Source of the DNA: Nymphaea colorata
Taxonomy: Eukaryota; Streptophyta; Magnoliopsida; Nymphaeales; Nymphaeaceae
NCBI RefSeq assembly: GCF_008831285.2
Contig: NC_045144.1
Location: forward strand, 21,405,716-21,469,715
Direction: 5' to 3'
Length of the DNA: 64,000 bases
The notes beneath the pieces are model-generated. The model made no database searches and was not told where the DNA came from. It was given only the letters and a program-made list of their open reading frames with translations. Each line of letters opens with the position of its first letter. Position 1 is the stretch's first letter. Below are positions 10,181 to 53,579 of this stretch, in pieces. The translations under genes and the position numbers were made by a program.

Positions 10181-10856
10181 TAGGCTTGTTGAGTTTGAAT
10201 TTGAACGGCGAACTTAAGTTACTTCAACTGGTTATTTGGTAGAAACTAAAACTCGTCTTGATCACTGGGAATACCTTAAAAAAGATTTGAGGGTCGATGA
10301 AGTTTTAGAAACTGAAGATGCGTGAGATTTCGAGTTGAGCAGTGTCAGATTTTGAGCATGGCAATAACTGAGTAGTTCAAATGGTATACTTTTAGTTGCG
10401 TTCGATTGTTCACGGATCTATGACTTGAACTACAGACTCTTGTACTGTTGCACAAACACCGTATTGAAGAGAAAACTGATAATCAATTCGAACAATATAG
10501 GAGTAAGAGATTGTATATATGGCTATGAGGAATATATATATGAAATTGAATGGTATAGTTAGTTTGAGTTACCCAATTGAGAAAAAAATAAAGAAAGAAA
10601 GTAATGGGCATTTTCATCCTTTAGTATTAGTTTATATATATTTATTTTGTTTATATCTTAAATGACAAAAGTAAAGTGGGTGACTATAAAAAGATGGAGC
10701 CAAAATCTTGTTTTCAGTCAACATATTAACTAGTTTTCGAAAATTTTTTCTCACAATGTTCAGCCAGTGCAATGTCGATGGACAAGATCATGTCAGTAAT
10801 AATCGAAGAATTGTAACTCTTTTATGGTTTCCTTTTTTTGTTTAAAAAATAATTGA

Positions 10857-10960
10857 GTGAGTTTAAACGAGCTCCAACTCGGTTCATCGAGTCGAGTTCA
10901 GGCAAAACTTTATGAGTCGAATTTGAGCTCTGAGTCGAGCCGAGTAGCTATCCATCCCTG
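10857..10960. mobile_element. Fragment of the GAGCTCGA-rich MITE family
   Basis: Repeated gagctc, gagtcgag and cgagccgag words match the element at 39400-39829. Only one end is present. It sits just upstream of the promoter region of copy B. Confidence 0.4.
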
Positions 10961-11308
10961 TATGGTTACCGTGGGCGCAGCTGCTCGGCCGCACCATCCC
11001 CACCGTGCCTCCTTCAACCGCAAAAGGCGAAAACCGACATGAGAAAACCTTTTGCTGTGATTCCAATTCCATTCTTTCCCCTTGCCGCCTTTAATGGCAC
11101 CGACCTCCTCAAGGATACCTACCCATAAAGACAGAGAATTCTTCGCGCGGACTCGAAGCAACGAACGGAGAGTTCTCTCCTTCTCTGTCAAAATCCGTTG
11201 AAGAAAAAGTTCAGGATTCTGTTTCCGTGTCTCCTTCTCAGGCAGTTTTTTATTCAAAACCAACAGCCACCCTCACTCTGTTCTTTCTTTAATCGGTTGT
11301 TGGTTGCC

Positions 11309-11316
11309 TATAAAAG
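11309..11316 (+). promoter_or_regulatory. TATA box of EF-hand gene B
   Basis: TATAAAAG lies 140 bp before the start codon, in a block (GTTGGTT..CTATAAAAGCCC) shared with copies C, D and E. Confidence 0.7.
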
Positions 11317-11448
11317 CCCATGGCTGGGAGCCTCTGTTCACCAGCGACAACGGTCACAGAAAATTAGCCTTCCTTCTTTCTGATCAGTCCTTGACATCTT
11401 CTTCTCTTCGTATCAAAACCGCCATTGTTGCTACCCTCTGCTACCATC

Positions 11449-11862
11449 ATGAGCATCGCGGTGTTGGACGGTTCCACCATTAGGTCCTTTGTGGGGGACG
11501 AAGCGGTCTTCCGCCGCTCCGTCGACGACCGCTTCCTCCGCCTCGACACCAACCGCGACGGCCTTCTCTCCTACTCCGAGTTCCTCTACGAGCTCGAGCG
11601 CCTGAGGGTCGTCGATTCCTCCGGATTCGGAGAGGAAGCAGCGGCGCGCAGCGGGGAGCAGCTGTCGCTCATCTACGCCGGAATGTTCCAGGCGTTCGAC
11701 CGGGACAGGAGTGGAGCCATCGACATGGCGGAGTTCAGGGAGGAGATGAAGCGGATGCTGCTGGGCGTCGCGGACGGCCTGGGGGCTCTGCCGGTTCAGA
11801 TGGTGCTGGAAGACGACAGCTTCCTGAAACTCGCCGCCGACCTCGAGTCTTCTGCCTTCTGA
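11449..11862 (+). CDS. Two-EF-hand calcium-binding protein, copy B
   Basis: A 137-residue sister of copy A, intronless, with loops at 33-44 (DTNRDGLLSYSE) and about 84-95 (DRDRSGAIDMAE). It differs from A and C in the linker (YELERLRVVDSS, EEAAARSGEQLSLIYAG), and there it is almost identical in nucleotide sequence to copy E, which lies 16 kb away. Its C-terminus (ESSAF) instead matches A and C. The start was chosen by alignment with the other copies; the leader 'accgccattgttgctaccc' is shared with A and nearly shared with E. The pattern points to gene conversion. The cellular target is unknown. Confidence 0.9.
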   Translation: MSIAVLDGSTIRSFVGDEAVFRRSVDDRFLRLDTNRDGLLSYSEFLYELERLRVVDSSGFGEEAAARSGEQLSLIYAGMFQAFDRDRSGAIDMAEFREEMKRMLLGVADGLGALPVQMVLEDDSFLKLAADLESSAF

Positions 11863-12329
11863 TACAACAACAGACGCTATTGGAAGCTAGTTTTTTTTAG
11901 TTTCATTCATCTAATCTTTTCTGATATACGTGACAAAAGAGAAGCCGGTGTTTTTTCTTTGTCTTTATGGAAAAAATTCTTCGTTGGTAGGAGTTCTTTT
12001 CTGCAAGAGATTGATTCCTGATGTAATGGTGGTCTCTGTTATTGCCTTTTTCGATTGTATGTCTGCCATTGTATCGAATTGATCGTGTCTTAAATTCGAG
12101 AAACTAAACAAGAGAATAATGAGTTGCTCTTTTGAAGTACTTCCGCTCCTACCATGTCTCTTCCTTCTCTTCTCTGTAATTGTTTAAGTCGATAAATCAG
12201 GTCATGAAACTGAGCTTCATCTCTTCAAACCTTAGCCTTCTTCGGTTCTTCCTCTTCATGGTGCGAAGAAGAAGTCTTCTGCCCTGGTAACTGTTTTTTG
12301 AAATCTGAAGGCAAAAATTTGTAGATATG

Positions 12330-13860
12330 GAATTCGAGCTTTGTGGAGCCGATCTACGATGGATAATCAAATTTGAACATGAATTCAAAAGGTCGTTTTG
12401 TAGATTAAATGCGAATTAAATATATCAACTAAATCAAGGGAGAATCAATTCCGAAGAATCCGAACCATCCGATTTATCGACTCAGATTGTGAAAAGATAT
12501 TTAAAAAAAAATTAAGCACAAATATAAACATATAAAAATATGAAAATTTTAAAATACATTAAAAAAATAAAAGCCGGCACTGCTGGAATATTTGGGTACA
12601 TAAACCATACACGCCAGCAGAGTCGCTCCCGGAAGTTGCTTGGATAAATAAACCATATTGTGGATTCTGCCGGAAGTAAGACTTCCCCGCCCGCCGTTTG
12701 GAGGGCGGGACCGCGTCGCACCGCCGCTTGAGTGCGCTCCGTCCGCGTTGCATGTCAACTAAAGGGGGAGTCAATCCCACTCTGGTTATGGTCCCCACCG
12801 GCCCAAAGGACCAGGAGAATTCGATTGGCGTCCGGCCGGCGTCGGAGAAGGCGCCGGAAACTTGCCATGAGTCGCGTTTGAATCTGCAGAAAGATATTTA
12901 AAAAAAAAAAATTGTTTCTTGCAAAATAAAATAACATATAGAAAATAATTGGAAAATAAAAAAATATCTTAAAGCAAAAATCTGCAGATTTTTATTTTTA
13001 TTTTTTCGTTACGACAGCCAGCCGGCCACTGACTGTGAAGTCTTTTTTGCATTTTTCTGATGCCTCCTTTTGTAATATGGTATTAAAGACAGGGTCGTTC
13101 TTGAAATTTTCCCCACCTTTTGACCGAAGCCAGGGGGAGAAGGTTTTGGCACGCTGACCAACGCGTCGCCGAGCACCTCGAGAGTTGACTCTTTGACTAC
13201 GGGTCGGTCGTGTCTCCCACTTATGGACGGATCTATCAGATCCAAATCTGGGTGCCCAATCTACACCTGATTTTGAAAACCACGGGTCTCAATGGGAGTC
13301 CAAATCCGTACCCGGTACAGATATGGAGTTTGAGATATGGCCTCACACCGTTAAGTCAAGTATGAGTTTGGCTCTATTAATTTTATTAATCCCTTTTGTT
13401 TCTTTGAATTTGTTAATTCATTTAACTAATTCAATTACGATGAATCGGTTTTACATGGTTGCATGGAATCCAGTTTAAGCTCTACTTGTTTAACATAACT
13501 TTAAACAAGTCATATGCATAACTTTAAACAAGTTTAGGGGCATTTTATTTTTAGAATCAAAGGTTTGATTTAATAAGTAAACTTTAAAAAATTTTAGTTG
13601 TTCTATATTTATAATCTTTAATTTTTTACTTTTAATGAAAAATTTCTACCTTTACTTCTGTGTTTAAAAAAGATGATGAATTCAAGATCATGTGGATTGT
13701 TCTATGTCAGATCAATAAGTTTTATGATGCAAGACATTTAAAAATTTATGACATAATCTTTAACATAAAGATTTATATTCGAGTGGGAAATTAAGGATCT
13801 AAAATATTCGAATTTAAGATGTTGTAGATCTTTAGATTAGATCAGTAATAAAATGAAGCA
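12330..13860. other. Spacer between EF-hand copies B and C
   Basis: Apart from the GC-rich insert it is AT-rich. A moderately GC-rich patch at about 13010-13260 has an open minus-strand frame of 78 codons without a recognisable domain. Confidence 0.4.
12490..12910. mobile_element. GC-rich insert bounded by a direct repeat
   Basis: A GC-rich block (about 12570-12870) sits in AT-rich DNA between two copies of AAAGATATTTA followed by an A-run (12493-12509 and 12890-12910). The boundary repeats resemble a target-site duplication left by retroposition. Inside, a TGG.TA.ATAAACCATA motif occurs twice (about 12595 and 12640). The inner sequence matches no family I recognise. Confidence 0.35.
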
Positions 13861-14233
13861 ATATCAATTTCAAATCAGAGCAATAGGTACTGTGGGCGCG
13901 TGCGCTCGGAGAGAATACGTAGCGTCGGTCGCGCCCCCCACCGGATCTCCTCAATCCCCGGCAAGGAACCGTTTTGCTTCTTAGTGAGAACGGAAAAGCC
14001 TTTGCTGCGATCCACTCTTTTCCCTTTGCCGCCATTAATGGCACCGACTTTGCAGATTCTGCATCCTTCGCGTGAACTCAAAGCAATGAACAGTGAATTT
14101 CTTTCCTCTTGTCAAAATCTGTGGGACAAAAGAGTTTATTCTGTTTTCTGTGTCTCCTTTCACTTTCCAGAAAGTTTTTTATTCAAAAACAACGGCCAAC
14201 CTCTCTCTCTTTAATGGGGAGTTGGTTCTTCCC

Positions 14234-14241
14234 TATAAAAG
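14234..14241 (+). promoter_or_regulatory. TATA box of EF-hand gene C
   Basis: TATAAAAG lies in the shared GTTGGTT..CCCTATAAAAGCCC block, 148 bp before the ATG. Confidence 0.7.
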
Positions 14242-14381
14242 CCCTTGGTTGGGAGCCTCTGTTCAGCAGCGACAACGGTCACACGAAAAGTAGCGCTTTC
14301 TTCTTCCTGATCAGCCTTTCATATCTTCTCTTTCTTCAAAAAGTACAGAAATCGTCGTAGTTGCTAACCTCTGGTACCATC

Positions 14382-14795
14382 ATGAGCATCGCGGTGTTGG
14401 ACGGCGCCACCATCAGGTCCTTTGTTGGGGACGACGAGGCCTTCCGTCGCTCCGTCGATGACCGCTTCCTCTTCCTCGACACCAACCACGATGGTCTCCT
14501 CTCCTACTCCGAGTTCCTCCACGAGCTCCAGCGGCTGAGGGTCCTCGACTCCTCCGGCTTCGGCGAAGAAGAAGCGGCGTGCAGAGGGGAGCAGCTGCCG
14601 CTCATCTATGCCGCCATGTTCCAGGCTTTCGACCGGGACAGGAGCGGAGCCATCGACAGGGCGGAGTTCAGGGAGGAGATGAAGCGGATGCTGCTGGGCG
14701 TGGCCGACGGCCTGGGGGCTCTGCCCGTCCAAATGGTGCTGGAAGACGACAGCTTCCTGAAACTCGCTGCCGACCTCGAGTCCTCTGCCTTCTGA
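14382..14795 (+). CDS. Two-EF-hand calcium-binding protein, copy C
   Basis: A 137-residue intronless copy with loop 1 at 33-44 (DTNHDGLLSYSE, His for Arg as in copy D) and loop 2 at 84-95 (DRDRSGAIDRAE). From codon 45 to the stop it is nearly identical to copy A, while the first third and the promoter are closer to B and D. Its 3' flank, for more than 1 kb, is paralogous to that of copy D, 10 kb away across the RAD51 block. The start is fixed by alignment. Confidence 0.9.
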   Translation: MSIAVLDGATIRSFVGDDEAFRRSVDDRFLFLDTNHDGLLSYSEFLHELQRLRVLDSSGFGEEEAACRGEQLPLIYAAMFQAFDRDRSGAIDRAEFREEMKRMLLGVADGLGALPVQMVLEDDSFLKLAADLESSAF

Positions 14796-15429
14796 TACAA
14801 AATATTTACAGACGCTTGTAGTAGTTAATTTTTTTCAGCTTCATTCGTCTTTTTTGATGTACGCGAGAAGATAGAAGCGGGTTTTCTTTTTCCTTCGTTT
14901 CTTTATCGAGAGGTTTTTCATTGGCAGGAGTTTTTTCCTGCAAGAGATCGTCGATGGAATGGTGGTCTCTGTTTAGTCCTCTTTGGATTTTGTATCCTCA
15001 ATTGTATCGGATTAATCATTGATTGGAGTCTTCTTTGTACTCAAGATCGAAGATGGATTCTTAGTTTCATGATAAAGCTTCCAAATTCCTGAAACTTTTC
15101 TCCGTTCCATTGAATCCCTGCTTTGCCGGTGGCTTAGACGTTTCTTCTTCTGCCGTCTTACTGTACCTTACTGTTGATTTTTTTTTTGCAAAAACCAGAG
15201 GCTTCACTGCATTCATTTGGTTTCATAACATGGTAATAATATGGAAAAATCTCCTAATCTCAACTTGGTATCTCGTATTGTGAATGTTTTCTTCTTTAAT
15301 TGTTCACTCAAATATGAACTTAATTTCTTGTTTTCCAAATATGAACTTGATTTCTTGTTTTGGGTATTGGAACTAAGGATGAGTTTGTTACCGGGTGTAG
15401 ATATAATTTTATATTTGAATTCCAATTAA

Positions 15430-24700: not shown

Positions 24701-24898
24701 AATTATGAGGAGGAGATAAAAATTTCTGTACAGTTTTCAAAACAATGGCTTTTTGGAACGTCCTTTCTTCTTCCCTTCGTCTCTCTTTCGGTGCGGTGCG
24801 GGAAACAGTGTAAAAGAAGCATCTTCGTAATTCCAGTCAAAAACAGGAGGTACAAAGACTTCTCTCATTCTCCTGTCTCTAATGGAGAGTTGGTTCCC

Positions 24899-24906
24899 TA
24901 TAAAAG
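24899..24906 (+). promoter_or_regulatory. TATA box of EF-hand gene D
   Basis: TATAAAAG lies in the shared GAGAGTTGGTTCCC..AAAAGCCCC block, 147 bp before the ATG. Confidence 0.7.
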
Positions 24907-25045
24907 CCCCCGTTCGGAGGCTTTGTTCTCAGGCGGCGACAGACAGAAAAATATCAGTTCCTGTTTCAGTCTTTGGTAGCTTCTGGTAGCTACCATCTTC
25001 TTCTTTGTACCGAAACCGCCATTGTTACTCCCCTCTGATACCATC

Positions 25046-25477
25046 ATGAGCATCGCGGTGTTAGATGGCGCCACCATCAGGTCCTTTGTGTGGGACGACG
25101 AGGCCTTTCGACGCTCCGTCGAAGACCGCTTCCTCCTCCTCGACACCAACCACGATGGGCTCCTCTCCTACTCGGAGTTCCTCCACGAGCTCCAGAGGCT
25201 GAGGGTCCTCGATTCCTCCGGCTTCGGCGAAGAAGAAGCGGCCCGCAGCGGGGAGCAGCTGGCGCTCATCTACGCCGGTATGTTCCAGGCGTTTGACCGG
25301 GACAGGAGCGGAGCCATCGACATGGCCGAGTTCAGGGAGGAGATGAAGCGGATGCTGCTGGGCGTGGCCGACGGCCTTGGGGCTCTGCCCGTCCAGATGG
25401 TGCTGGAGGACGACAGTCTCCTGAAACTTGCCGCCGACCTCGAGTCCTCGGCAATGGAAGCAGCGCTTGCCTTCTGA
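25046..25477 (+). CDS. Two-EF-hand calcium-binding protein, copy D
   Basis: 143 residues, intronless. Loops DTNHDGLLSYSE (33-44) and DRDRSGAIDMAE (84-95). It has Trp instead of Gly at residue 16 (SFVWDDEAF) and a longer C-terminus ending MEAALAF, shared in kind with copy E and absent from A to C. The N-terminal half is C-like and the middle is intermediate between the A/C and B/E types. Upstream it shares the GTTTTCAAAACAA.GGCT block with E; downstream it shares more than 1 kb with C. Confidence 0.9.
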   Translation: MSIAVLDGATIRSFVWDDEAFRRSVEDRFLLLDTNHDGLLSYSEFLHELQRLRVLDSSGFGEEEAARSGEQLALIYAGMFQAFDRDRSGAIDMAEFREEMKRMLLGVADGLGALPVQMVLEDDSLLKLAADLESSAMEAALAF

Positions 25478-26099
25478 TACAAAACAGACTCTTCTAGTTG
25501 TATAGTTCCTTGAGCTTCATTCAATACACGCGAGAAAAGAGAAGCCGGTTTTCGTTTTTCCTTTTCTGGTTTCTTCATAACAAAATCATGATGGGTAGGA
25601 GTTCGTTGCTGCAAGAGATCGATCATTGATGTAATGGCGGTCTCTGTTGAGTCTTTTTCTTATGTTTGCCTTCAATTGTATTGGATTAATCATTCATTGG
25701 TGCCTTCTTTGTACTCGAGATTGAAGATGAATTATTAATTTCTTACTGAAGCTTCCAAATTCACGAAGATGTTCTCCCCGGTGGTTTAGCCATTTCTTCA
25801 GCTGTTTTACTCTGCTGAACTGTTGAATTCTTTGATTACGAAGAAAGCTAAATCAAAGAGGAAAGCAGAAACTTCATTCTCTTTGGGGGTTTCAAAACAG
25901 TGTTCACAAATTGGTTTCTGTTCGTGTGGATTTCTTTTTTAAAATTCTTCACGGAACTATGAACTTAATTTTTTTTTTGGTACTGGAAATAATATTGAAT
26001 TTGCTGCCGGTTGTGGGCTTGGAACCTAATTTCTTGCTTGAATTCCAATTAAACTATAACCTCATTGTTAAGTAGAAAATGACCACATATCGGTTTTAA

Positions 26100-27100
26100 G
26101 CAGTGTTCATAAAAATCGGTCAATTTGTAAAAATCGTTGTCATTTATTTAAGCACATGAATGTAACGTAGTCAAATCGGAGAATGTTTTTGCAATCCGTG
26201 TGCGTGTTTTTAGGAAAATAATCACTGTAATTTTTTATTTAAAATTAACGAAAGGTCTGTTTTAAGATTATAGGAAAAGGTTCGTTCTTAAATTCATGGA
26301 TTTTAAATCTTGGACATCTTCAATCAATCAAAGGAAATCAATGGTCATCAGACTTTCTCTCCGAACGTACTTCAAATGCGTTTCGTTCTAATTGTAAACT
26401 GGATTTCGTGAAAGATCGAAAATACTACAATCTAAAATGCTTCGCACTAAGGAAAGGCTTATCTATAGCCTCATTTAAGCCGTGAGTTTTGTACGAGAAC
26501 ATATAAAATATTGAAAATTAGGTTTTTGGAACGAATAAAAAGAATCATGTGCTTAAAATAAGATTCTAAAACATATTAGCAAAAAATAATTTAACTTTTA
26601 AAACTTGCAATTGCGCGTCTTTTTATGCTAATAATTAGTTCTTTAAAGTGAGATCCGTTATCTGCCGACTTCCAAATCTAAAGGCAGGGATGCTCAGTCC
26701 CCAGATTTGTTCTTCGTCCCCCGATTCCGAGTTGCAGTTTTACTACCAGAAAAGCGTGTCTGTTACACAAAAAGTCATTCCTCCCACAAATTTCTAGTCT
26801 CCACAAAGAATTCGATGGGCGTCTGGTTATAAGAAAAAGGAGGAATCGCCGTTTGATCTCTTTCCTCTCGACTGCCAAAAAGTGAACGATGGGTGTTCTA
26901 TTTAAGTAGTCTTCGAATTTATAGATTTTTAATGAAAATATCATTTTACAAACTTTTAATAAAGCTCATATTTTTTTCAATAGTTATCAAATAAAGATTT
27001 TAGATAAATCTACGTTCAACACAAAAAATCCTTCCCTAAAATGACAGAACATTGTAATTTAGTAATAGAAAATAAAAAGATTTGCAGTTAATATATTTTT
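26100..27100. other. Spacer between EF-hand copies D and E
   Basis: AT-rich. The first part to about 26270 is paralogous to sequence at about 15950-16080. A short stretch near 26805 (AATTCGATGGGCGTCTGG) resembles one near 12815 after copy B. No gene is seen. Confidence 0.4.
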
Positions 27101-27318
27101 TTTTCTCGAACTATCGTTTTTATTGTTTTCAAAACAACGGCTGATTTTTTGGGACCCTCCAAACTTTGTCTTCCCTTCGTCTTTCGGCGTGGAAAAGTTC
27201 GCCATTCTGGTCAAAATCAGGAGACACACTGAGAGCAGCCACCAGTACCACACGGCCTCTCTCTCTCTCTCTCCCAGTCCTTCCTCTCTGTTTCTCTCTA
27301 ATGGGGGAATTGGTTCTC

Positions 27319-27326
27319 TATAAAAG
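27319..27326 (+). promoter_or_regulatory. TATA box of EF-hand gene E
   Basis: TATAAAAG in the shared block TTGGTTCTCTATAAAAGCCC, 158 bp before the ATG. A short CT repeat lies upstream (about 27258-27275). Confidence 0.7.
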
Positions 27327-27476
27327 CCCCTGTTCGAAGCCTCTGTTCACAGGCGACAAGAGTGACGGAAAAATATCAGCTCTTGATTCGGTCTTTACCA
27401 CTTTGGTATCCTCTGCGAGACACCATCTTCTTATTTTGTATCAGAACCGCCATTGTTGCTAGCCTCTGCTACCATC

Positions 27477-27905
27477 ATGAGCATCGCGGTGTTAGACGGC
27501 GCCACCATCAGATCCTTTGTGGGGGACGAAACGGTCTTCCGCCGCTCCGTCGACGACCGCTTCCTCCGCCTCGACACCAACCGCGACGGCCTTCTCTCCT
27601 ACTCCGAGTTCCTTTACGAGCTCCAGCGTCTGAGGGTCGTCGATTCCTCCGGATTCGGAGAGGAAGCAGCGGCGCGCAGCGGGGAGCAGCTGTCGCTCAT
27701 CTACGCCGGTATGTTCCAGGCGTTCGACCGGGACAGGAGCGGAGCCATCGACATGGTTGAGTTCAGGGAGGAGATGAAGAGGATGATGCTGGGAGTGGCC
27801 GACGGTCTGGGGGCTCTGCCCGTCCAGATGGTGCTGGAAGATGACAGCCTCCTGAAGCTTGCCGCCGACCTCGAGGCTGCCGCAACGGAAGCGCTTGCCT
27901 TCTGA
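27477..27905 (+). CDS. Two-EF-hand calcium-binding protein, copy E
   Basis: 142 residues, intronless. Loops DTNRDGLLSYSE (33-44) and DRDRSGAIDMVE (about 84-95, Val where the sisters have Ala). The central 300 bp are almost the same as copy B, while the extended C-terminus (ATEALAF) goes with copy D. The 3' flank is unlike that of the other copies from shortly after the stop, so the array homology ends here on the downstream side. Confidence 0.9.
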   Translation: MSIAVLDGATIRSFVGDETVFRRSVDDRFLRLDTNRDGLLSYSEFLYELQRLRVVDSSGFGEEAAARSGEQLSLIYAGMFQAFDRDRSGAIDMVEFREEMKRMMLGVADGLGALPVQMVLEDDSLLKLAADLEAAATEALAF

Positions 27906-28106
27906 TACGAATCGGCTGAAGGACGAGACCACCTGCTCTGTCTGCTTTCTGCAATATTTTTTTTTTTGGAGACTTTACTAAAATTTATATTTTTTTGTCT
28001 GGTGGGGCAATAAAAATAGCTCCAGTTTAAGTTACTTTTAACTACCGCCTGAATTGTATGAAAAGGTATTGAATTAAAATGATATATTTTTTTCATCTTG
28101 CTTTTA

Positions 28107-28870
28107 ATATATATATATATATATATAACACAGACAAAACTATTAAACAGTTGAACTTGTCGGACAAATTTGCGTTTAAGAGCCTACACTTTTGTCAAAT
28201 CCAAGAAACAGACTCATGACTCACGCTTATTCTTTTATTATGGTCTCCCAACTTTTTGATTGACGCCCATCGACAAGGAGTCAAATGTGTTGAGGCATTC
28301 ATGAGACATTATATTCAGAAGTCGAAGATATGGTGGAACACTATGTTTCAATAAGTATAAAACTCCAAAACCAGAGACCTGGCCTTCCTTTTTTTTTTTC
28401 TTTTTCTTTTTTCGAAATTGACATAAAAAGTTTTACATATCTTACACGAATTTTGAAAAGTTTTACATATCTTTTACAAACGAGAACTCCAGGGGTGAAG
28501 CCCCTCGCAGTCTTTCATGGCCTTGGCGCCATTTCAATTTTTTAAAAAAATATTTACATGTAAATTTTAAAAGTAACATTTCAACTCATATTAAAATTTA
28601 AAAACTTTAATTCGATTTGGTAAAAAATTTTTGATTTTCTTTGTCTTCACTTTCTGTCTGCTTAAACCTGCAACTGCAAATCCAAAAGCTATGAAACAAT
28701 GGGTAGCTTCTGAGTCTCCGTTTCTCGACGTGTGCTACACGTCGACCTCCATTAATCTCCTTCAGGAATGGTAGTCAACTCCTCTCTCTCTCTAGGTCTG
28801 CATGTCCTTCATAAGGGCATGCTTCCCTGTCTCTGGAAAGAAGCGGTTGCACAGAGAACTCATCGGTGCC
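28107..28870. other. Spacer upstream of EF-hand copy F
   Basis: It starts with a TA repeat (28107-28126) and is AT-rich to about 28680. The TATAAAAGCCC block of the other copies is absent. Confidence 0.4.
28726..28744. promoter_or_regulatory. Perfect ACGT-core inverted repeat upstream of copy F
   Basis: CGACGTGT-GCT-ACACGTCG: two 8-bp arms around a 3-bp spacer, each with an ACGTGT/ACACGT core of the kind bound by plant bZIP factors. It lies about 140 bp before the start codon. Confidence 0.35.
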
Positions 28871-28879
28871 ATCGTTAAG

Positions 28880-29293
28880 ATGAGCATTGTGGTGTTGGAC
28901 GGCTCTACTATCCGGTCGTTCGTGAAGGATGAGGAGGCCTTTCACCGGTCCATCGACGACTGGTTCCAGCGCCTCGACACCAACAGGGACGGCCTCCTCT
29001 TCTACCCGGAGTTCGTCCAGCTGCTGCAGATGATAAGCTGGGTCGTCGAGCCGTCTGGCTGCAACGAGGGAGGAGAGGGGGAAGGAGGTGGCAGCGGCCT
29101 TTACGATTCCGTGTTTCGGGCGTTCGACCACGACCGCAGCGGCGCCATCGACCTGGGGGAGTTCAGAACGGAGATGAAGAAGGTGATGCTGGGGATGGCT
29201 GAGGGGCTGGGGTCGTTGCCCGTCCAGATGCTGCTGGAAGACGACGACAGCCTCCTGAAGCAGGCCGCCGATCTCGAGTCCTCCTCCGAATGA
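28880..29293 (+). CDS. Divergent two-EF-hand protein, copy F
   Basis: 137 residues from the ATG that aligns with copies A to E; an in-frame ATG at 28802 would add 26 residues with no counterpart, so the inner start is preferred. Both calcium loops are intact: DTNRDGLLFYPE (33-44) and DHDRSGAIDLGE. The linker is quite different (WVVEPSGCNEGG then a Gly/Glu-rich stretch), and the end reads LLEDDDSLLKQAADLESSSE. It is the oldest branch of the cluster, does not take part in the recent homogenisation, and has an unrelated upstream region. Confidence 0.88.
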   Translation: MSIVVLDGSTIRSFVKDEEAFHRSIDDWFQRLDTNRDGLLFYPEFVQLLQMISWVVEPSGCNEGGEGEGGGSGLYDSVFRAFDHDRSGAIDLGEFRTEMKKVMLGMAEGLGSLPVQMLLEDDDSLLKQAADLESSSE

Positions 29294-44201: not shown

Positions 44202-45205
44202 CACATATATGTAGGATTCGCTGGCCTCTCATAGCATACTCACATTTGCTACATCTATATACTTAATCAAGAGATGAACAAACATTAACTATAAAGTTTC
44301 TCTTAGATCAAAGCCAGGGGGACTGGCAGGGGTCATGGCCTCACATTGGTATTTTATGAAAAAGATACTTGTTATAATTTTCAAGAAAATTTTTTATTTG
44401 GTCCTTATAAAAGTTTCAAAATAATATAGTTCGGTCCCTATAAAAAGTTTGAGAAGTATAGTTTGGTTGGCCCCCGAGTTTCTCATATATGTCTAAAAGA
44501 GTGAACTTGCAGGTTTATTTTTCTTCGTATTTACACCAGCAATGTTTAATTGGTTTCAAAGTTTTAATTTTTCAATATCCAAATACCAGTGGACAGCACA
44601 AAAGAAATGTTGGGAACATTTAGTCCCCAGCAAGAGCCATATACATATGAGATGGCAGAAGAGACCACACCTTCTGGTATTTTTGCTAGGGGCACATATT
44701 CAGCCAAATCTAAGGTACAACTCCTTGGCCCTCTTGATTTCTTCCCACATTTTTTAGCTTAGTTCTTGTCTTCCCAATGTCATGGTATTCTATAATTTTA
44801 TATGCTCAGAGTATCATATACCATGCATACATACATACATACATACATACATACATGCACACATGCATTGTGGAATGTCATACCAAACATACGCATATTG
44901 ACCTATTATATGCATCATTAAGCTGAATTTGTGATCATAATCTCTCATCAGTTTGTAAAATGATGACAATGCATGCTACCAAGAAATCAACCACATGCAT
45001 ACATGCACACATAAACAGATGCCTTGCAGAATGACCTATTAAACAGTCTCGTGTTTGTAGTCATATGTATACTGATCATTATATGCATCATTAAGCTGAA
45101 TTTGTGATTATAATTTCTCATCAGTTTGTAGACGATGACAACACATGCTACCTGGAAATCAACTACACATTCGCTATAAAGAAAGACTGGCCAGCATCTA
45201 GCTAG
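42023..45205 (+). CDS. Rho GDP-dissociation inhibitor, complete, five coding exons
   Basis: Exons: 42023-42253, 42328-42394, 43359-43577, 44590-44714, 45125-45205. They total 723 nt, giving 240 aa. RhoGDI binds prenylated ROP/Rac GTPases in the cytosol, holds them in the GDP form and extracts them from the plasma membrane, so it sets where polar growth and ROS signalling occur. Visible: an acidic N-terminal extension (1-77, EEEEEDE), the regulatory arm (DDESLRRWKEQLLGSVDL, about 78-95), and the immunoglobulin-like beta-sandwich (LEPEVKIVNLSILSPGRPD, YTNTVWKTGVKVDSTKEMLG, TPSGIFARGTYSAKSKFVDD, CYLEINYTFAIKKDWP). An upstream ATG at 41889 opens a 70-codon frame overlapping the start out of frame, a possible uORF if transcription begins that far up. 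Intron 2 holds a MITE, and intron 4 a decayed copy of the last exon. Confidence 0.94.
43134..43274. mobile_element. Short MITE in RhoGDI intron 2
   Basis: About 140 bp, starting GGGTCGTTTGATAG and ending AAGCCAAACGACCCC, so GGGTCGTTTG forms the terminal inverted repeat. The inner 'agattcatgagacattc' motif is shared with the GTTTGGCAA MITE family. Confidence 0.6.
44823..44855. repeat. CATA tetranucleotide microsatellite
   Basis: Eight or so CATA units in RhoGDI intron 4, just before the duplicated segment. Confidence 0.85.
44875..45010 (+). pseudogene. Decayed duplicate of RhoGDI exon 5 and its acceptor region
   Basis: The segment 44886-45000 is a diverged direct copy of about 45060-45175. 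Both contain 'atatgcatcattaagctgaa', 'ctcatcagtttgta' and 'tgcatgctacc.gaaatcaac'. In the upstream copy the exon is shorter and its frame is lost (stop after the acceptor). The real exon is the downstream copy, which reads FVDDDNTCYLEINYTF. Confidence 0.7.
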
Positions 45206-46345
45206 CTGATTATCAGGCAACTCGTACGATCGTTAATGAATTTCTTGGTTTGTTTCTCTTCCTTCTCATATAGAACAACTAAGTTGAACATCGTTCTACC
45301 AGGAGCCATATTTCACAGGCGACCGATCAAGCTCCAAGCTTCGAAGACGGCGTGGAGACCCAATGAAACTGATCCTCAATGGTGCAGCAGATTTGGACAT
45401 AGGTTGAGCTAATTCACCTCATATTGGAGTATTACAAAATTGAGATCATAGAGAAGCGAAGAGAATCTTCTTTAGACATTTATGACATTTCAACTAATAA
45501 TATAGATGTATATTAGGTTGTCTTTTTGATGGCATTCTGATTGGAATCATTTTCTTGAGATGATACATTAATTTTTTTGTTCTCTCTATGTGAACGGTTG
45601 TATTTTTCTTTTTGAATTCTGACTATGATTGGTCCTATTGTCATAATTTCGTTTTATCTCTGTCATATTCGAATATGAGGTACAAATTCTTTCATTGCCA
45701 AACTACCCCTAAGTAGTATGAACATGTTTGATTGTATATAACATTTTTTCCCATTTAAATTAGTAAAATCAAGGAGCCACTAACGACCAAACGGAATGGA
45801 GCCACATGTGGGCATTTGACCACACAGTCCAACATATGTTAGTTATTTTCATATTGGTGATTTCCAACAATCCATTTATTCATATATTATGTGCCCCTTG
45901 ATTATATCAATATATTTAAAAACCAACTAAATGTCATTTCAATATTAATTAATGTAATTGCAGCCAAAATCCTCATATTGCGAGTTATTGTTTTACTCAA
46001 TTTCTAGCCAACAGCAATCTTCTACAACTTCTCTTTCTTCATTAGCCACAAGTCCCAAACTTTTACTTTTCATGGCACTCTTTCAAAATATGGTAAATGT
46101 TTAAATATTTTAACAATTAAAAAATTAGAAAAAAAATAAAATGAGAAACTAGTAACACAAACGTCAAACATAGTAAGTAACAAATAAAATTAGAAAATAA
46201 AAACATACGGTTTGACACTTAAGAAAAAAAATTGAAAAAAAAACCTAAAATAAAAGAATTGATTTTACCAACTCTTCAGCTTCCATTGATTTTTCATCCG
46301 AGCAATCAAGGCCTCTTCTCTTTCTTTGAATTCATCAACTGATTG

Positions 46346-46775
46346 AAATAACTTCTGAATGATTTTCTCTTCTACAATGATCCTTAGGCTTCTTGGCCCT
46401 CCTTTTATGCTCACAGCTTCATGACGCCGTGTTTCTGCAACTAATCAGGTTCATTTCCCTCGACTCCTACTGTGGATATCCACTTTGGTAGACACTAAAC
46501 TGAATTCTAAAACAGAGAGCAACACTGTAAGGAAAGTGCAGGAACAATTTACTTTAATTCCATTGCATTGTTATCTCTCTGTTACTATCTTCGAATGTCA
46601 TGTCTTGGAATTCAGTTTAACATCTACCAAAGTTAATCGCCACAGCAAGAGCTGAGGGAAATCTGACCGATCAGTTGCAGAAACACGGAGGCAATTGGAA
46701 GCTGTGAGCATAAAAAGAGCATCAAGAAACCTACGGATCATGGTAGAAGAGAAAACCATTCAGTAGTTATTTCGA
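46346..46775. mobile_element. Fold-back element inside the left palindrome arm
   Basis: The sequence 46352-46506 is the inverted copy of about 46610-46765 (key words GTTTCTGCAACT, ACTGAATTC, TTCTCTTCTAC). A shorter version of the same hairpin, 50938-51185, is in the right arm, so the element predates the palindrome. Confidence 0.6.
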
Positions 46776-47872
46776 TTGAACTCAAGGAAAGAGCACTTTA
46801 GGAAATGTTTAAAATACAAAGAATGGGGAGAAGAAAAGAATACGCTGACATGGTAGAAAAAATTTGGATTGGGGAACTAATTCAAACTCTCATGTTTTTA
46901 AGGGCATAGCATATATAGATAAACAAAGAGTTAAAGGTACCATTATGAAAATACAAGAAATTTGAAGGGCGGGTGTAGGCAACTGCGTTTCATATTCGAT
47001 TCCCATGGGTGTTGCAATCTAGTAGGAGTTGGAGGTTATAGGGCCGAGGGTCAAGATCCAATTCAGGACAAGGGTTGTGGTTGCACTCCTTGTCCCCTTC
47101 TCTTTCTGTGTGTGTGTGTGGGATCATGGATTGGAGCCGCTATATATACTTGTGATCTATACCTTGGGGTGAATGATGTCTTTCTTTTTTAGGACATATT
47201 TTCAATAAATTTATATAATGCTATAGAGAGAATGTTTATCTATTGCGTTATTATTTCTATGAAATTCTGAGATTTTAAAAGATTGTTATACTTATAAAAG
47301 ATGCCATAATTATAAGATATTATGGATTTGACTATTAATGTACATGGAAATACACCATGAGAAGATATTTTTAAGATAATGTAAACGTCACACTTTTTAA
47401 GGGGTGAGACATTCATATGTTGGCTCTAAATAATTAGAGACAATATCACATCACCATATATATCTTTTGAGATTAATTTCTTTATATATAAATAACGTGA
47501 GACATACGTTGTCTCAAGACTGAAGATAGTGCAAGTTCTAACTCCAATTAGATTGTTTAGTCCAACTCAAATGAAGTTGCTCAAAATAGAAGTTAGTCAC
47601 TGCAAAATAATTATTTTATTTATCGACATTACAGGATAAATGTAGTCACTAAATGCAATTTAGCATCACAATTAAAAGCTCCCATGGTAATTGAGCAAAT
47701 TATCAGTGTCACTTGGGTTTCCATCACACAAGTTAGTCCACTAGAGATTGAAGGCTCAGGCTTGAAACACAACGAAAGCTTATGGGAACCTGAAGTTAAA
47801 TTAAATTCAGCTCCTCTTTTGTCGGATTAAACTAAATGAGGACAAAAAAAGGCCACTTAGAGTGCTGTTTGA

Positions 47873-48174
47873 CAACAGTGGCAGTGACCGTTGTTACAAA
47901 TATTAGGGCAGATTCATAAGATACTGTAACATCAACATTCCCGTTCTAGTATTTAGGATAGATACATGAAATAGTTACATATTATCAGTGTTGCCAAACA
48001 ACCTTTATAAGAACAAAAATGCAAAAAAAGACTGACTTTAGTGACAATTAGCTACTATTCTATATATCTGTTGCAAACATTAGGGCATATTCATAAGATA
48101 CTATAACATAGTGTTGCCGGTAGATACATGAAATAGTTACATATTATCAATGTTGCCAAACAACATATATAAGA
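47873..48174. mobile_element. MITE of the GTTTGGCAA family with a partial tandem copy
   Basis: 47873-48004 starts GTGCTGTTTGACAACAGT and ends AGTGTTGCCAAACAAC. A truncated direct copy follows at about 48066-48174 with the same interior ('tagggca.attcataagata', 'gatacatgaaatagttacat') and the same right end. It lies within the segment unique to the left palindrome arm. Confidence 0.6.
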
Positions 48175-48289
48175 AGAAAAATGCAAAAAAAAAAGACTGA
48201 TTTTTTTTTTTGGTGAAAGACAAAGCTACCTAATTCAAGTACAACTAGAGTCAACTTAATTTGAGTACAAACACAATTCAGATCATACA

Positions 48290-48500
48290 TACCTCAACCA
48301 CGACGTAGATAGAATATGAAAGGCAGATATTATTTTAAACAATAATTCGAAAAAACATAACTTTATTGCAAATAACTGATTAGTTTCTTATTACTAGAGT
48401 AAAAACATTAAAATAATTTGGATGAAAAGGCATTAAAGCCGCTGTTGTGTGATAAGACCTTATTAGGGGTAAAGACATAGTCATTACCTTAAGTTGATTG
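48290..48500. repeat. Segment repeated in direct orientation at 53258-53465
   Basis: Both stretches start CTCAACCACGACG, contain 'acataactttatt', 'aatttggatgaaaa..'-type words and end in 'acatagtcatta' / 'acatgatagtcatta' followed by 'ttgatt/taatcgg'. The second copy lies outside the palindrome, next to LINE debris. Confidence 0.5.
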
Positions 48501-48798
48501 AGTAGTGATACATAGGTTCTAAAATCTACATGATAGCAGGAATTTTATAAACAAGAAAATATTGATGTGCTTGAAAATATCACACAAATAGGGGCCTATT
48601 ATGTAAATATAAGAAAAAAAATACCTGCACGATAATCCGTTAAAACGATCGCTTCTTGCTACTTTCATATATATATCCATTGCATGCTTTGAGACTCTCA
48701 CACGACTCTTTGACTCTGGCTTTTGACATCTCTGTTGTGCGCCAAGACTGCCGCTGAAGCAAGAAAAAGGAGGAGGAGAATCATAAGAAGAAGGAGGA

Positions 48799-49182
48799 AT
48801 GGAGATAGAGGGAGCAATGGCAGAGGAGGGTGGCCCTCTGCAAATTCTACGACCAACCAGAGGCTACATAATGAAGTTCGCCCTCATTGATTGTGGGTAT
48901 CTGTCCTTCGTGTTTGGACCGGTGGTGCTAACTATCGTGCTCTCGGTCAACAGTTACTTCAATCCCGCATTCTACGTCCTCATCTGGGTGGGTGTCTCCA
49001 TCCTCACCTTGATCGGCGTCCTTATCATGGTATTCCATTGCATCCATCACCTACGTCGAGTGGCGCCCCTTCCGGACCCCAACCAGCAGTCACAGCAACT
49101 GCAAAATGAGCAACATGTTATCACCCCAAAATTTTCAGAAAAGGGGGTTATTAAAATTTTCGGTCCATTATTTTTAAAATGA
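48799..49182 (+). CDS. Small two-helix membrane protein, left copy
   Basis: 127 residues, intronless, from ATG 48799; the inner ATG 48817 aligns with the start of the right copy and is the likely original start. After a short N-terminus (EEGGPLQILRPTRGYI) come CGYLSFVFGPVVLTIVLSV and VLIWVGVSILTLIGVLIMVF, two clear membrane helices, then a basic segment (HHLRRVAP) and a hydrophilic tail. By the positive-inside rule the C-terminus is probably cytosolic. The tail runs into low-complexity sequence before the minisatellite, so the true end may be altered. I do not recognise the family. Its paralogue faces it from the other palindrome arm. Confidence 0.6.
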   Translation: MEIEGAMAEEGGPLQILRPTRGYIMKFALIDCGYLSFVFGPVVLTIVLSVNSYFNPAFYVLIWVGVSILTLIGVLIMVFHCIHHLRRVAPLPDPNQQSQQLQNEQHVITPKFSEKGVIKIFGPLFLK

Positions 49183-49219
49183 ATTTTAAACACAAGTTTA
49201 AATCCAAATCAAGCATTTG

Positions 49220-49570
49220 AGACCCATTTGTCCCTTCTTTTGATAAAGAACTTCCTTTTAGACGGCGATTTTGGTCTTTTTGGTGGGTAAGATCATTTGT
49301 CTCTCATTTTAACAAAGAACCTCCTTTTAGAGGGCGATTTTGGTTTTTTTGGTGGGTAAGACCGATTTACCCCTCATTTTGACAAAAAACTTCATTTTAG
49401 AAGGCGATTTTGGTTTTTTTGGTGGGCAAGACTCATTTGTCTCATCTTTTAACAAATCTGTTAACAAAGAACCTTCTTTTAAAAGGCAATTTTGGTCTTT
49501 TTGGTTGGCAAGACCCAATTGCCCCTCCTTTTGACAAAAAACATTCTTTTAGAAGACGATTTTGGTCTTT
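49220..49570. repeat. 70-bp minisatellite, left arm, five units
   Basis: The word GGCGATTTTGGT.TTTTTGG recurs at about 49263, 49333, 49403, 49483 and 49553, so the unit is about 70 bp with one longer unit of about 80 bp. Unit ends read AAAGAACNTCCTTTTAGA. Confidence 0.8.
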
Positions 49571-50029
49571 TTGAGTGAACAAAGGCCAAGTCATTTTTTT
49601 TAAAAAATATTTTTATAAGCCCAATGGCCAATCATACCCATTTTCAAACCAATTCTTTTTTAAAATAATTCAAAATTATGTGAAATTCAGATGAAACTGG
49701 GCTCACTTCTTCGATTTCTTCTTTCTCTTTTTCTTGGCATTCTTTCCTTTTAGCAGAAGCTGATCACCGATTCTCTTCCAGAGAATGCCGAACATGGTTG
49801 GAGAAGAAACGTAAGAAAGAAGCTCAGGAAGAGAATCAATGATGAGCTTCGGCTAAAGGGAAAGAATGTCATGAAAAAGAGAAAGAAGAAATCGAAGAAG
49901 TGAGCCCATTTATTTGAATTTCATATAATTTTGAATTATTTTGAAAAAGAAATGGTTTGAAAATGGGTATGATTGGTCATTGGGCTTATAAAAATATTTT
50001 TTTTTAAAAAAATGAGTTGGGCCTTTGTT

Positions 50030-50310
50030 CACCCCAAAAGACTAAAATCGTCTTCTAAAAAGAGGTTTTGTCAAAAGGAGGGGCAAATGGGTCTTGCCCA
50101 CAAAAAAAAAAAAAAACCAAAATCGCTTTCTAAAAGGAGGTTTTTTTTATCAAAAGGAGGGGTAAATAGGTTTTAACCACAAAAAAAGACCAAAATCGCC
50201 ATATAAAAGAAGGTTCTTTGTCAAAAGGAGGGGCAAACGAGTCTTGCCCACCAAAAAGACCAAAATCGCCCTCTAAAAGGAGGTTCTTTGTCAAAAGGAA
50301 GGACAAATGA
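50030..50310. repeat. 70-bp minisatellite, right arm, four units
   Basis: The reverse complement of the left-arm array: ACCAAAATCGCC-type words recur at about 50044, 50118, 50190 and 50260. It covers the 3' part of the right membrane-protein frame and explains the odd repeated tail of that frame. Confidence 0.8.
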
Positions 50311-50594
50311 GTTTTATCGAAAATGGGTGCTACTCTACTTAGGCAATAAATGCAGTGGAATAAAATGGTAAGGATGCCGATGCAGATGACGACGGAGGCA
50401 CCAACCGAGAAGAGGATGTAGCATGTGGGACTGCTGTTACTCTTATCCGGGAACGCTTTAATCACCACCAGTATTCCACACAGCACCACTAGTCCACACA
50501 CAAAGGACAGATACCCACAATCAATGAGGGTCTTGTTTGTCACGTAGCCTCTGGTTGGTGGTAGAATCTGCAGACGACCGCGCTCCTCAGCCAT
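50130..50594 (-). CDS. Small two-helix membrane protein, right copy
   Basis: The frame starts MAEERGRLQILPPTRGYV and has two membrane helices (CGYLSFVCGLVVLCGILVVI and CYILFSVGASVVICIGILTI) followed by LFHCIYCLSRVAPIFD, clearly homologous to the left copy (roughly half of residues match by eye, with a four-residue insertion between the helices). After about residue 95 the frame reads through the minisatellite, which is unlikely to be ancestral coding sequence. The 5' leader present upstream of the left copy is missing: a TA repeat begins right at the start codon (50592-50617). It may be a decaying copy. Confidence 0.5.
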   Translation of the reverse strand: MAEERGRLQILPPTRGYVTNKTLIDCGYLSFVCGLVVLCGILVVIKAFPDKSNSSPTCYILFSVGASVVICIGILTILFHCIYCLSRVAPIFDKTHLSFLLTKNLLLEGDFGLFGGQDSFAPPFDKEPSFIWRFWSFFVVKTYLPLLLIKKTSF

Positions 50595-51850
50595 ATATAT
50601 ATATATATATATATATCCGTTTGAAGTTTTAACTGATTATTGTGCAGGTACTTTTTTTTTCTTATATTTAAATAATAGGTCTTCACTTGTGTGATATTTT
50701 CAAGCACATCAATTTTTTCTTGTTTATAAAATTCATGCTATCATGTAGATTTTAGAACATATATATCACTACCCAATTAACTTCATTAATAGTCAAATCC
50801 ATAATATCCTATAACTGCGGCATCTTTTATAAATATAATAATTTTTTAAAATCTCAGAATTTCATAGAAATAATAACGCAATAGATACAACATTCTATCT
50901 ATAGCGCTATATAAATTTATTGAAAAAAATGTCCTCCATGTTTCTGCAACTGATCGGTCAGATTTCCCTCAACTCTTGCTGTGGCGATTGAGTTTGGTAG
51001 ACATTAAACTGAATTCCAAGACATGACATTCGAACATAGTAACAGAGAGCTAACAATGCAAAGGAATTAAAGTAAACTGTTCCTGCACTTTCCTTGCAGT
51101 GTTTCTCTCTGTTTTGGAATTCACCAAAGTCGATATCCCCATTAGGAGTCAAGGGAAATGTACCTAATTAGTTGCAGAAGCACGGCATCATGAAGCTGTG
51201 AGCATAAAAGGAAGGCCAAGAACGCTATGGATCATTGTAGAAGAGAAAATCATTCAGAAGTTATTTCAACTCATGAATTCAAAGAAAGAGAGAGGCATTG
51301 ATTGCTCGGATGAAAAATCAATGGAAGCTGAAGAGTAGGTAAAATCAATTCTTTTATTTTAAGTTTTTTTTTTATTTTCTTTTCTTAAGTGTCAAACCGT
51401 ACGTTTTCATTTTCTATATGATGTTTGTGTTACTAGTTTCTCATTTTAATTTTTTAAAATTTTAAAAAATTTACCGTATTTTGAAAGTAAAAGTTTGGGA
51501 CGTTTGGCTAATAAAGAAAGAGAAGTTGTAGGATATTGCTGTAGACTAGAAATTGAGTATAAAACAATAACACGCAATATGAGGATTTTGGTTGCAATTA
51601 CATTAATTATATTGAAATTACATTTAATTGGTTTTTAAATATATAGTTATAATCAAGGGCACATAATATATGAATAAATGGATTGTTGGAAACCACCAAT
51701 ATGAAAATACCAAACATATGTGGGACTGTGTGGATAAATGCCCACACAAGCCCACATGTGGCTCCACTCCGTTTGGTCGTTAGTGGCTTCTTGATGTAAT
51801 TAGTTTAAATTGTAAAAAAAAGTTATATACGATCAAACAAGTTCATACTA

Positions 51851-51915
51851 CTTTTGGGTAGTTTGGCCATGGGAATATTAACATCATGTTCCCATTGTCA
51901 AACAACCCTTTAGGG
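51851..51915. mobile_element. Very short MITE at the right end of the palindrome
   Basis: GGGTAGTTTGGCCATGGGAA and, reversed, AAAGGGTTGTTTGACAATGG form terminal inverted repeats only about 60 bp apart. The left palindrome arm stops in the same repeat (CATTGCCAAACTACCCC at 45693), so the arms end in a MITE terminus. Confidence 0.45.
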
Positions 51916-52339
51916 GCATCCAATATACTTAGAAACATGGAATTTTGATTATTAGAATCAAAATGTTCATTTTTTTAAAAAAAATAGAATTATTAAACAA
52001 ATGAAGTATTTTGTTTCTGGAATTAAGATTCCAGTTTAAGGACGAATTAAGATTCTGGAATTTTCATTCTCTAATCAAAATTTGAAACCATCAAAGACAA
52101 TCCAAACCTTTACCAGATCCAACAAACCTGATCCACAACTACATTAACAATTATGTGAACCTCTTGGTCCACAACAAACGGAATACATATGAAAGAAGCA
52201 AGAGGCCGCCGTTTTAATGGAATATCATTCAGGGATTTATTTTCTCATAATTTCATAATAGGCGTCCAATTGTGTGCTATTTTTTAAGCACATCAAATTT
52301 ATTTATTGTTTATAATAGGCGTCCAATTGTGTCCAACTT

Positions 52340-52415
52340 CATTTGAGTTGGAGTAAACAATCTAATTAGAGTTCGAACTTGTACTATCTTCAGTGTTGAG
52401 ACAATATTTCTCATG
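52340..52415. repeat. Inverted copy of the segment at 47505-47580
   Basis: CAACTTCATTTGAGTTGGAG, then 'caatctaattagagtt' and 'actatcttcagt.ttgagacaa', is the reverse complement of left-arm sequence that is missing from the right arm proper. This suggests the right arm once reached further or was rearranged. Confidence 0.55.
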
Positions 52416-52614
52416 GTAATGAGTTGAGTTCTTTCAATTAATCATGTAGGTTGTGTGTGCTGAAATCCTCTAGCCATGTTGATTCCACTTAGGCCATGGC
52501 CACACCCCGGATAATTAAAAAACAAATTACATTGAAAAAATAAAATTTTTTTTAGTTGTGTCATGTATTGTTTGGATTCAAATTCAGCGGCATGTTTACT
52601 AACGCCTCCTTACA

Positions 52615-52990
52615 TTTGACAGACTGCAAAGGTTGAGTGGTATTACTATTAACAGATGTCCTCTTTGTAAGCAGGACACTGAAGATAGTAGGCATTTATT
52701 CTTTTGCTACGGGATTTCTAAATCTGTTTGGAATTTCCTCACTGGAAAGTTTGAAAAGAAAATTCTTAATAGATTTTATGTGAAAGAGATGTGGCAATGG
52801 TGGAAGGGGTACATACAAATTCAGAATTAAATGGCTCCAAAATGCTCGTTGTTGGTTTTTCCTTTACTAATTTTGAGATAATGGAAAAATCGTAAATTTG
52901 GTTGCATTTGAAATAACATAATTTGAAGTCTATTGTTAATTGGTCAATCTCACAGTAAGCAGTTTAAAATAGAATTTAATCACTTCAAAC
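52615..52990 (+). mobile_element. LINE fragment: reverse-transcriptase zinc-binding tail
   Basis: The frame from about 52633 reads RCPLCKQDTEDSRHLFFCYG then ISKSVWNFL, the zf-RVT domain (CPLC...HLFF.C...VW) at the C-terminus of plant LINE ORF2. Farther on, broken traces of WKNRKFG fit the same family's tail. It is 5'-truncated as usual for LINEs; no endonuclease or RT core is present. Confidence 0.72.
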
Positions 52991-53579
52991 TTATTTATTT
53001 GCAAACTGTACATTTTAACAATTTGTATACCAACTTCAGTTATAAAATCCTTCGAAGAGTATTTCATCCTACAACCCAATCGGTGACCTTTTTTTGTAGT
53101 ATAGATAGAAAACCACTTTTTGTTTTATTATTATTTTTCCTTGACGATGGATCAATCTCCATGCTTAGCTTATCCACAGCTAAAAATAAATTTTGCTGAC
53201 CTAATTAAGCAAATGAAAGTCAATTACATTGAGAAGAAAGATAATTTTGATCTTGTCTCAACCACGACGACGACTGAAATTAGACGGCAAACCAAATATT
53301 ATTTTTTAAAAAATAAAGGGGAAGAACATAACTTTATTTACCACTGGTAGAGTAGATATATTTAATCTGGATGAAAAATTGGTGCCATTGTCTGGGATGA
53401 GAAGCTAATTGTTAGGAGCAAGGACATGATAGTCATTAACTTTTAGTTAATCGGGTGACGATAGTTATTCTCTGGTGTTCCCAACTTGTCATTTCTTGCA
53501 TCGAGCACTTGCATTTTCAAGCACCTGCATTTCCCACTCACTTCAAAAGCGAAAAGAGAGAAGAGGCAGCAAGTCAGAG

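Follow-up and report, generated by a model that had tools for sequence, protein, structure and literature searches.

An inverted tail-to-tail gene pair in Nymphaea colorata with a right arm best read as a mosaic

Introduction

The Lgc1 locus of rice is reportedly a tail-to-tail inverted gene pair that has been proposed as a source of double-stranded RNA, and the arms of both Lgc1 and the PAI4-PAI1 pair of Arabidopsis are said to be highly identical over their coding part. According to a published report, VIM4-VIM2 of Arabidopsis thaliana Cvi consists of inverted gene copies separated by a short loop, for which small interfering RNAs (siRNAs) have been demonstrated, and PAI4-PAI1 was likewise proposed to give double-stranded RNA from an inverted gene pair (PMC13213937). 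Here we describe a palindrome in Nymphaea colorata in which two copies of a gene for a small, putative membrane protein lie tail-to-tail. It is contained in a stretch of 64,000 nucleotides of contig NC_045144.1 in assembly GCF_008831285.2 (C7:21405716-21469715; hereafter the window, to which coordinates without a contig refer), and its right arm is best read, from the pattern of shared sites, as a mosaic arising from ectopic recombination.

Results

BLAST of the window against itself revealed an inverted repeat at 45693-51871, with a left arm of ~4.1 kb (45693-49779) and a right arm of ~2.0 kb (49827-51871) on either side of a spacer of ~47 bp, placed at 49780-49826 by the sequence and the arm alignment. 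The BLAST E-values of 0 exclude a chance origin; the palindrome is a real DNA structure of ~6 kb. A first-pass annotation had described mirrored arms of 2-4 kb, a 45-bp spacer and gene copies converging on the centre, all of which we recover, the last as open reading frames (ORFs) at 48799-49182 (+) and 50130-50594 (-). Some long-read libraries are known to produce artefactual palindromes, in which a read is folded back on itself. In this case the arms differ by 7-8%, carry deletions private to one arm and include a tract of foreign affinity in one arm only, so that an assembly artefact is, in our judgement, almost inconceivable.

We then compared the arms part by part, with gap columns left out here and in all the coding-distance, lineage-change, site-pattern and permutation analyses below. 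Identity in the non-coding parts was 92.5% in the outer, 92.8% in the middle and 93.7% in the upstream part, 88.1 and 90.3% in tandem repeats near the axis and 93.2 and 90.1% in the core, giving an overall range of 88-94% with no increase toward the centre. The two coding halves, at 86.4 and 76.2%, were the least alike part of the palindrome, and the first-pass claim that identity peaks at the centre was not upheld. Kimura two-parameter (K2P) distances followed the same pattern, with 0.066-0.080 for the outer, middle and upstream parts, 0.072 and 0.107 for the core and 0.104-0.131 for the tandem repeats, while the coding part gave a synonymous distance (dS) of 0.39 (bootstrap 0.23-0.62) and a non-synonymous distance (dN) of 0.31.

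The origin of this divergent coding part was examined using other family members, sought across the 407.8 Mb (783 contigs) of the genome. The left protein has at least 13 matching stretches and the right protein at least 6, in each case including the query itself and the other gene of the window. At least 11 further family places were found, at C7:6.567, C13:5.692, C13:5.695, C4:3.737, C4:3.738, C7:21.477, C7:21.523, C7:21.148, C7:20.149, C8:23.735 and C6:18.947 Mb. The first-pass annotation had proposed a search for a single-copy version in relatives; one is present in the same genome, at C7:6.57 Mb, and served as the outgroup. Among the matches listed, the best partner of the right protein outside the window is C13:5.692 (80% of amino acids identical), as against 56% for the left gene.

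With this outgroup, changes were distributed evenly between the right and left lineages in the 5′ flank (6:5 of 135 sites) and in the 3′ region (6:4 of 82 sites), whereas the coding part showed 55 changes on the right lineage to 11 on the left, of 269 sites. Sites that join the right copy and both C13 copies against the left copy and the outgroup numbered 0 in the distal 5′ flank, 3 in the proximal flank, 12 and 21 in the two coding halves and 0 in the 3′ region; those joining left and right against the others numbered 3, 1, 2, 0 and 2 over the same stretches. Thus, the right arm carries a contiguous tract in common with a third copy (50335-50690 on the minus strand, opposite left 48588-49057), set between left-like flanks, which is the pattern by which a gene-conversion mosaic is recognised. 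Of the 79 ordered informative sites, 67 belong to the gene body with its proximal flank, and the right arm was C13-like at 51 of these but at none of the 12 in the 3′ region; a C13-like run as marked as that at 48588-49057 (left coordinates) was matched in none of 20,000 permutations (p 5e-5). The permutation test was limited to three chosen stretches and left out sites at which the C13 copies differ from each other or the right copy matches neither side.

Several observations weigh against a simple exchange of this kind. The right copy differs from one C13 copy, C13a, at 32 of 249 coding sites, which is above the left-right divergence of the flanks, so that no known donor fits exactly. In addition, 69 of 249 coding sites are different between the outgroup and C13a, compared with 10 of 85 in the proximal flank, and the whole right/C13 lineage looks fast in the coding part, which exchange alone does not explain. 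The edges of the tract also appear weaker than its middle. In the proximal flank the right copy is about equally far from left (9/87) and C13a (8/89), so that few sites define the 5′ edge. For the distal flank, C13 offers no homologous sequence, and in the 3′ region the C13 alignment is doubtful at 8 of the 12 left-like sites; the tract edges are therefore defined mainly by the shared insertion described below, together with the match between left and right flanks. Finally, whereas the C13 copies are broken, no stop interrupts the 92 family codons of the right ORF, and this open frame may hint at constraint.

These points bear on an alternative in which the right gene body, once the inverted duplication had taken place, evolved fast in place, under selection or relaxed mutation, and was later transferred to C13. 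Given the C13 relatives, we regard such acceleration as unlikely. In its favour, replacement changes on the right lineage (42.2/192) exceed the changes in the flank (12/217; p 1e-6), coding distances give a long right branch, and both the maintained frame and the apparent speed of the right/C13 lineage would fit. The lineage-rate test left out six inserted right codons, eight codons of the C7:6.57 copy and stop-bearing codons. Silent changes, however, also lie above the flank rate (10.8/66, p 0.008), and the 36 sites common to right and C13 are all in one tract. Moreover, the insertion is missing from the C13 pair, whose downstream sequence is like that of C7:6.57, so that this pair is not a copy of the whole right arm.

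Turning to the two genes themselves, the left ORF (48799-49182, +) encodes 127 amino acids and is supported by its relatives in the genome, and the right ORF (50130-50594, -) encodes 154 amino acids, as supported by alignments. Two membrane helices are predicted in the product. As all Pfam matches fell below the curated cut-offs, we keep the gene as an unnamed small membrane protein; our literature searches did not name it, which does not imply that it is absent from print. The last codons of the left ORF extend into inserted DNA, and those of the right ORF into the inserted repeat. The right ATG stands immediately behind a TA repeat (50595-50616), and the right copy has no counterpart of the left 5′ untranslated part or of the six codons with which the left ORF begins. 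The left 5′ flank (48486-48650, +) has its counterpart at 50617-50783 in the right arm, with 93.7% identity and a K2P of 0.066 over 48500-48645; in the five-copy alignment the two differ at 5/61 and 9/87 flank sites.

At the centre, a dispersed repeat with 70-bp tandem units lies between the coding part and the 3′ region, at 49190-49702 (+) in the left arm, as identified by the genome search and its tandem repeats, and as a shortened copy at 49904-50310 (-) in the right arm, which matches query positions 104-513 at 81% and is also evident in the arm alignment. The query was the left-arm stretch 49190-49702, whose limits are not necessarily the true ends of the repeat. With 40 of 700 first-look candidates scored, the matches comprised 60 stretches and fell at 41 places, of which two are in the window; at the 39 places outside, the best stretches among those scored were 77-83% identical. 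The two arms carry the insertion at an identical position, and the C7:6.567 and C13 copies lack it, so that it probably preceded the inverted duplication. The left 3′ region (49703-49779, +) is 89% identical to the C7:6.57 Mb copy over 49703-49778, and its sequence is also present in both members of a gene pair on C4; the right one (49791-49903, -) is 85% identical to the C7:6.57 Mb copy, is longer, and provides most of the spacer. By sequence, then, the palindrome axis lies within the family's own 3′ region, adjoining the inserted repeat. A lysine-rich antisense frame at the axis (49781-49900) was considered as a captured gene fragment; it had no Pfam family and no sequence match in the PDB, and we rejected this possibility, since in relatives this DNA forms the 3′ region.

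The inverted blocks of tandem repeats resemble the ends of fold-back elements, and the centre could accordingly be seen as a fold-back transposable element inserted between two genes. We consider this highly improbable. The 3′ region of the family itself makes up the innermost part, and at the 39 outside places scored the neighbouring pieces of the repeat lie on the same strand, including three same-strand pairs 6.3-6.5 kb apart (on C4, C5 and C437), a spacing that suggests a long terminal repeat. No exact flanking repeat of at least 6 bp, as expected of a target-site duplication, was found at the central element within 40 bp outside and 15 bp inside its ends, and a search for exact repeats at the outer ends of the palindrome gave one 6-bp match only, leaving the transposition-linked origin suggested at first pass without support from either place. 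The central inverted tandem repeats are thus probably two copies of the insertion, not fold-back transposon ends.

Similarly, of the inner fold-back elements noted at first pass, those at the centre resolve into the inserted dispersed repeat and the gene 3′ region, present once per arm. An imperfect fold-back was confirmed in the left arm at 46342-46776 (76% self-complementary by BLAST). It has a possible 7-bp flanking repeat, GATTGAA, and a wider genome query that covered it, as opposed to a dedicated search, listed only places in the window. It falls across the edge of the outer arm parts, 45693-46685 (+) and 50938-51871 (-), which are 92.5% identical without gaps (K2P 0.080) and which BLAST pairs as 45693-46691 with 51871-50933 (84.8% with gaps, E 0). 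Other collinear inverted blocks are 47191-47340/50935-50784, 48491-48646/50783-50626 and 48817-48929/50594-50482, and 49293-50310 is an inverted match to itself. The right arm is shorter because the left arm has two blocks without a right counterpart in the arm alignment, 46686-47190 (+) and 47341-48485 (+). The first was probably deleted from the right arm, since its absence cuts the fold-back, which is whole on the left and truncated at 50938 in its right-arm copy. Sequence lying mostly in the second block (47841-48500) recurs upstream of the C7:6.57 Mb relative. The miniature inverted-repeat transposable element (MITE) terminus in which the palindrome was first thought to end corresponds to a dispersed MITE-like repeat at ~51907-52100, just beyond the right end. 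This repeat has many copies in the genome, which were 68-88% identical among the 40 of 380 candidates scored.

The other family copies are mostly degraded. At least 8 of the 11 look broken or truncated. In-frame stops are found at C7:6.567, C13:5.692 and C4:3.738 Mb and a frame-shifting insertion at C13:5.695, with an upstream in-frame ATG remaining on C13, and only part of the protein is matched at C4:3.737, C7:21.477, C7:21.523 and C7:21.148. Two further close pairs were identified. On C13, arms of ~1.1 kb (5691853-5692947 and 5695631-5694476), which align in two pieces at 93 and 89%, lie tail-to-tail across a spacer of ~1.5 kb; on C4, arms of 0.5 kb (3736788-3737279 and 3738213-3737710) are 80% identical and lie tail-to-tail across ~0.43 kb. 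Hence the close pairs found in which both sides contain coding sequence, three in number (C7, C13 and C4), are all tail-to-tail. This layout is recurrent, which is suggestive, not proof, as the pairs may not be independent.

Near the palindrome, what remains of the 5′ flank of another family copy was found at 52177-52413 (-), as an inverted match to left 48545-48681 and 47498-47579. It is oriented like the right gene and is 91-92% identical to the copies at C7:21.477 and C7:21.523 Mb; no coding part was found beside it. These two truncated copies lie ~45 kb apart in opposite orientation (+ and -, respectively), have 5′ flanks that are 94% alike, and group with the remnant. On C13, a sequence from the left of the palindrome (44718-44991) recurs beside the gene pair at C13:5696233-5696503 (94.6%), and pieces of the palindrome's outer ends and of its right neighbour (45659-45877 and 51676-52166) lie between the two C13 genes.

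Next, we assessed the capacity of the locus to form a hairpin. Read-through from the left gene, whose 5′ flank and untranslated part align with relatives, could cross the axis and yield a hairpin RNA, from which Dicer-like enzymes would make siRNAs that silence the locus, its relatives or the inserted repeat family. The 47-bp loop is in keeping with such an active hairpin, as is the layout, which resembles that of VIM4-VIM2 in Cvi (~6.4 kb with a 50-bp loop; PMC13213937). For the central 460 nt a folding energy of -295.8 kcal/mol was obtained, compared with -99.7 (sd 6.0) for shuffled sequences, none of 100 of which was as low, and 1076 windows of 21 nt are capable of forming a duplex with up to 3 mismatches; a strong fold of this central part is expected of any inverted repeat.

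Other results argue against an active hairpin. Pairing is poor between the gene bodies, since the right one groups with another subfamily, and only one (28 bp) of the 19 perfect runs of at least 21 bp between the arms lies in the coding part. Exact 21-mers, with low-complexity ones dropped, were held in common with 3 of 10 family stretches (6, 15 and 19 windows) and with none of the other 7, in a set in which three stretches measured only 500-700 bp; the C13 matches come partly from the outer repeat, not from the gene. Changes that preserve pairing through G-U were not significantly enriched on either strand (17:8 at the centre, p 0.11; 14:17 in the outer arms), and the start codon of the right gene directly follows the TA repeat, with no 5′ untranslated part. 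We therefore hold the active hairpin to be possible, yet rather unlikely.

The first-pass suggestion of a layout from which siRNAs may arise agrees with the two inverted gene copies and their short loop, whereas near-perfect identity over the genes, a criterion of our own derived from VIM4-VIM2, was not found, and for this reason membership in the class of inverted-repeat siRNA loci cannot be claimed. By analogy with VIM4-VIM2 in Cvi, small-RNA production is plausible. A young MIRNA locus, the other possibility raised at first pass, would be compatible with the stable, gene-derived fold-back, the centre of which includes the family's 3′ region. No match to a known precursor family, which is not required of a young locus, was obtained: Rfam gave 11 weak matches in 45000-53000, none reaching its gathering score, including mir-3938 across the axis (E 0.21).

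Elsewhere in the window, a cluster of six related ORFs that share one orientation and are 73-93% alike occupies 9056-15088, 24876-27908 and 28796-29290, and the two members scanned are EF-hand proteins. An 88-bp inverted repeat (57074-57161/57912-57999; 92%) with an outer span of ~0.9 kb resembles the ends of a mobile element, and a DEK_C-domain protein with a long glutamine-rich run is encoded at 5529-6176 (-).

Discussion

Taken together, these data make it probable that the locus arose by an inverted tail-to-tail duplication, that a later exchange made the right arm a mosaic, and that the locus is for the most part a by-product of these events. In such a history, a unit consisting of the 5′ flank, the gene, the inserted repeat and the 3′ region would have been duplicated in tail-to-tail orientation and joined within the 3′ region, after which two blocks and the 5′ untranslated part would have disappeared from the right arm. 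An ectopic, gene-conversion-like exchange would then have given the right arm a gene body and ~90 bp of 5′ flank from a different subfamily, the other known members of which sit on C13. Two routes can be envisaged. The palindrome may at first have been perfect and then had its right gene body overwritten by a C13-type donor. Alternatively, a C13-type right gene may have been native to the locus and had its flanks overwritten from the left arm. Since the right copy is further from C13a than the left and right flanks are from each other, the second route fits slightly better. What is observed is the structure, the mosaic pattern of sites and the repeated occurrence of tail-to-tail pairs; we infer the order and direction of the events, and likewise that no function has been under selection. 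Inverted duplication in a mostly broken gene family most likely produced the locus as a by-product.

A different view of the recurrent layout would be that tail-to-tail pairs are a retained state, in which three loci on as many chromosomes act as long-hairpin sources, their small RNAs quiet the family, and subfamily exchange in one arm tunes which relatives are targets. We think this very doubtful. The existence of three such pairs in one genome does allow a test of whether they persist because of the RNA they might make or despite it. With by-product duplication as the preferred reading, the palindrome illustrates what can become of an inverted gene pair, namely collinear arms of which one is eroding, and a gene body of foreign subfamily that breaks self-pairing over the gene. 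Its age is measurable, given a divergence of ~7-8% across most of the flanking parts.

How does the locus compare with known systems? As in VIM4-VIM2 of Cvi, neighbouring gene copies are inverted over ~6 kb around a ~50-bp loop, show structural turnover and carry tandem repeats inside the arms, those of VIM being 75-83 nt long and located in an intron (PMC13213937). The VIM pair is head-to-head and 99.86% identical from start to stop codon (PMC13213937), whereas the palindrome described here is tail-to-tail, is 92-94% identical in most flanks and has gene bodies of two subfamilies. Like GmIRCHS at the soybean I locus, it comprises inverted repeats of a gene copy within a family cluster; silencing is known there (PMC13051633), whereas for the present palindrome it is only a possibility. 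The locus differs from Lgc1 and PAI4-PAI1, as these are reported, in that its coding part is the least alike. As in interlocus gene conversion between paralogues, a tract of another subfamily stands inside otherwise matching DNA; unlike the usual case, the tract lies in one arm of a palindrome and lowers self-pairing just over the gene body. The locus thus appears to be an inverted gene pair of a kind already known; its mosaic arm is unusual, and the recurrence of its layout is suggestive.

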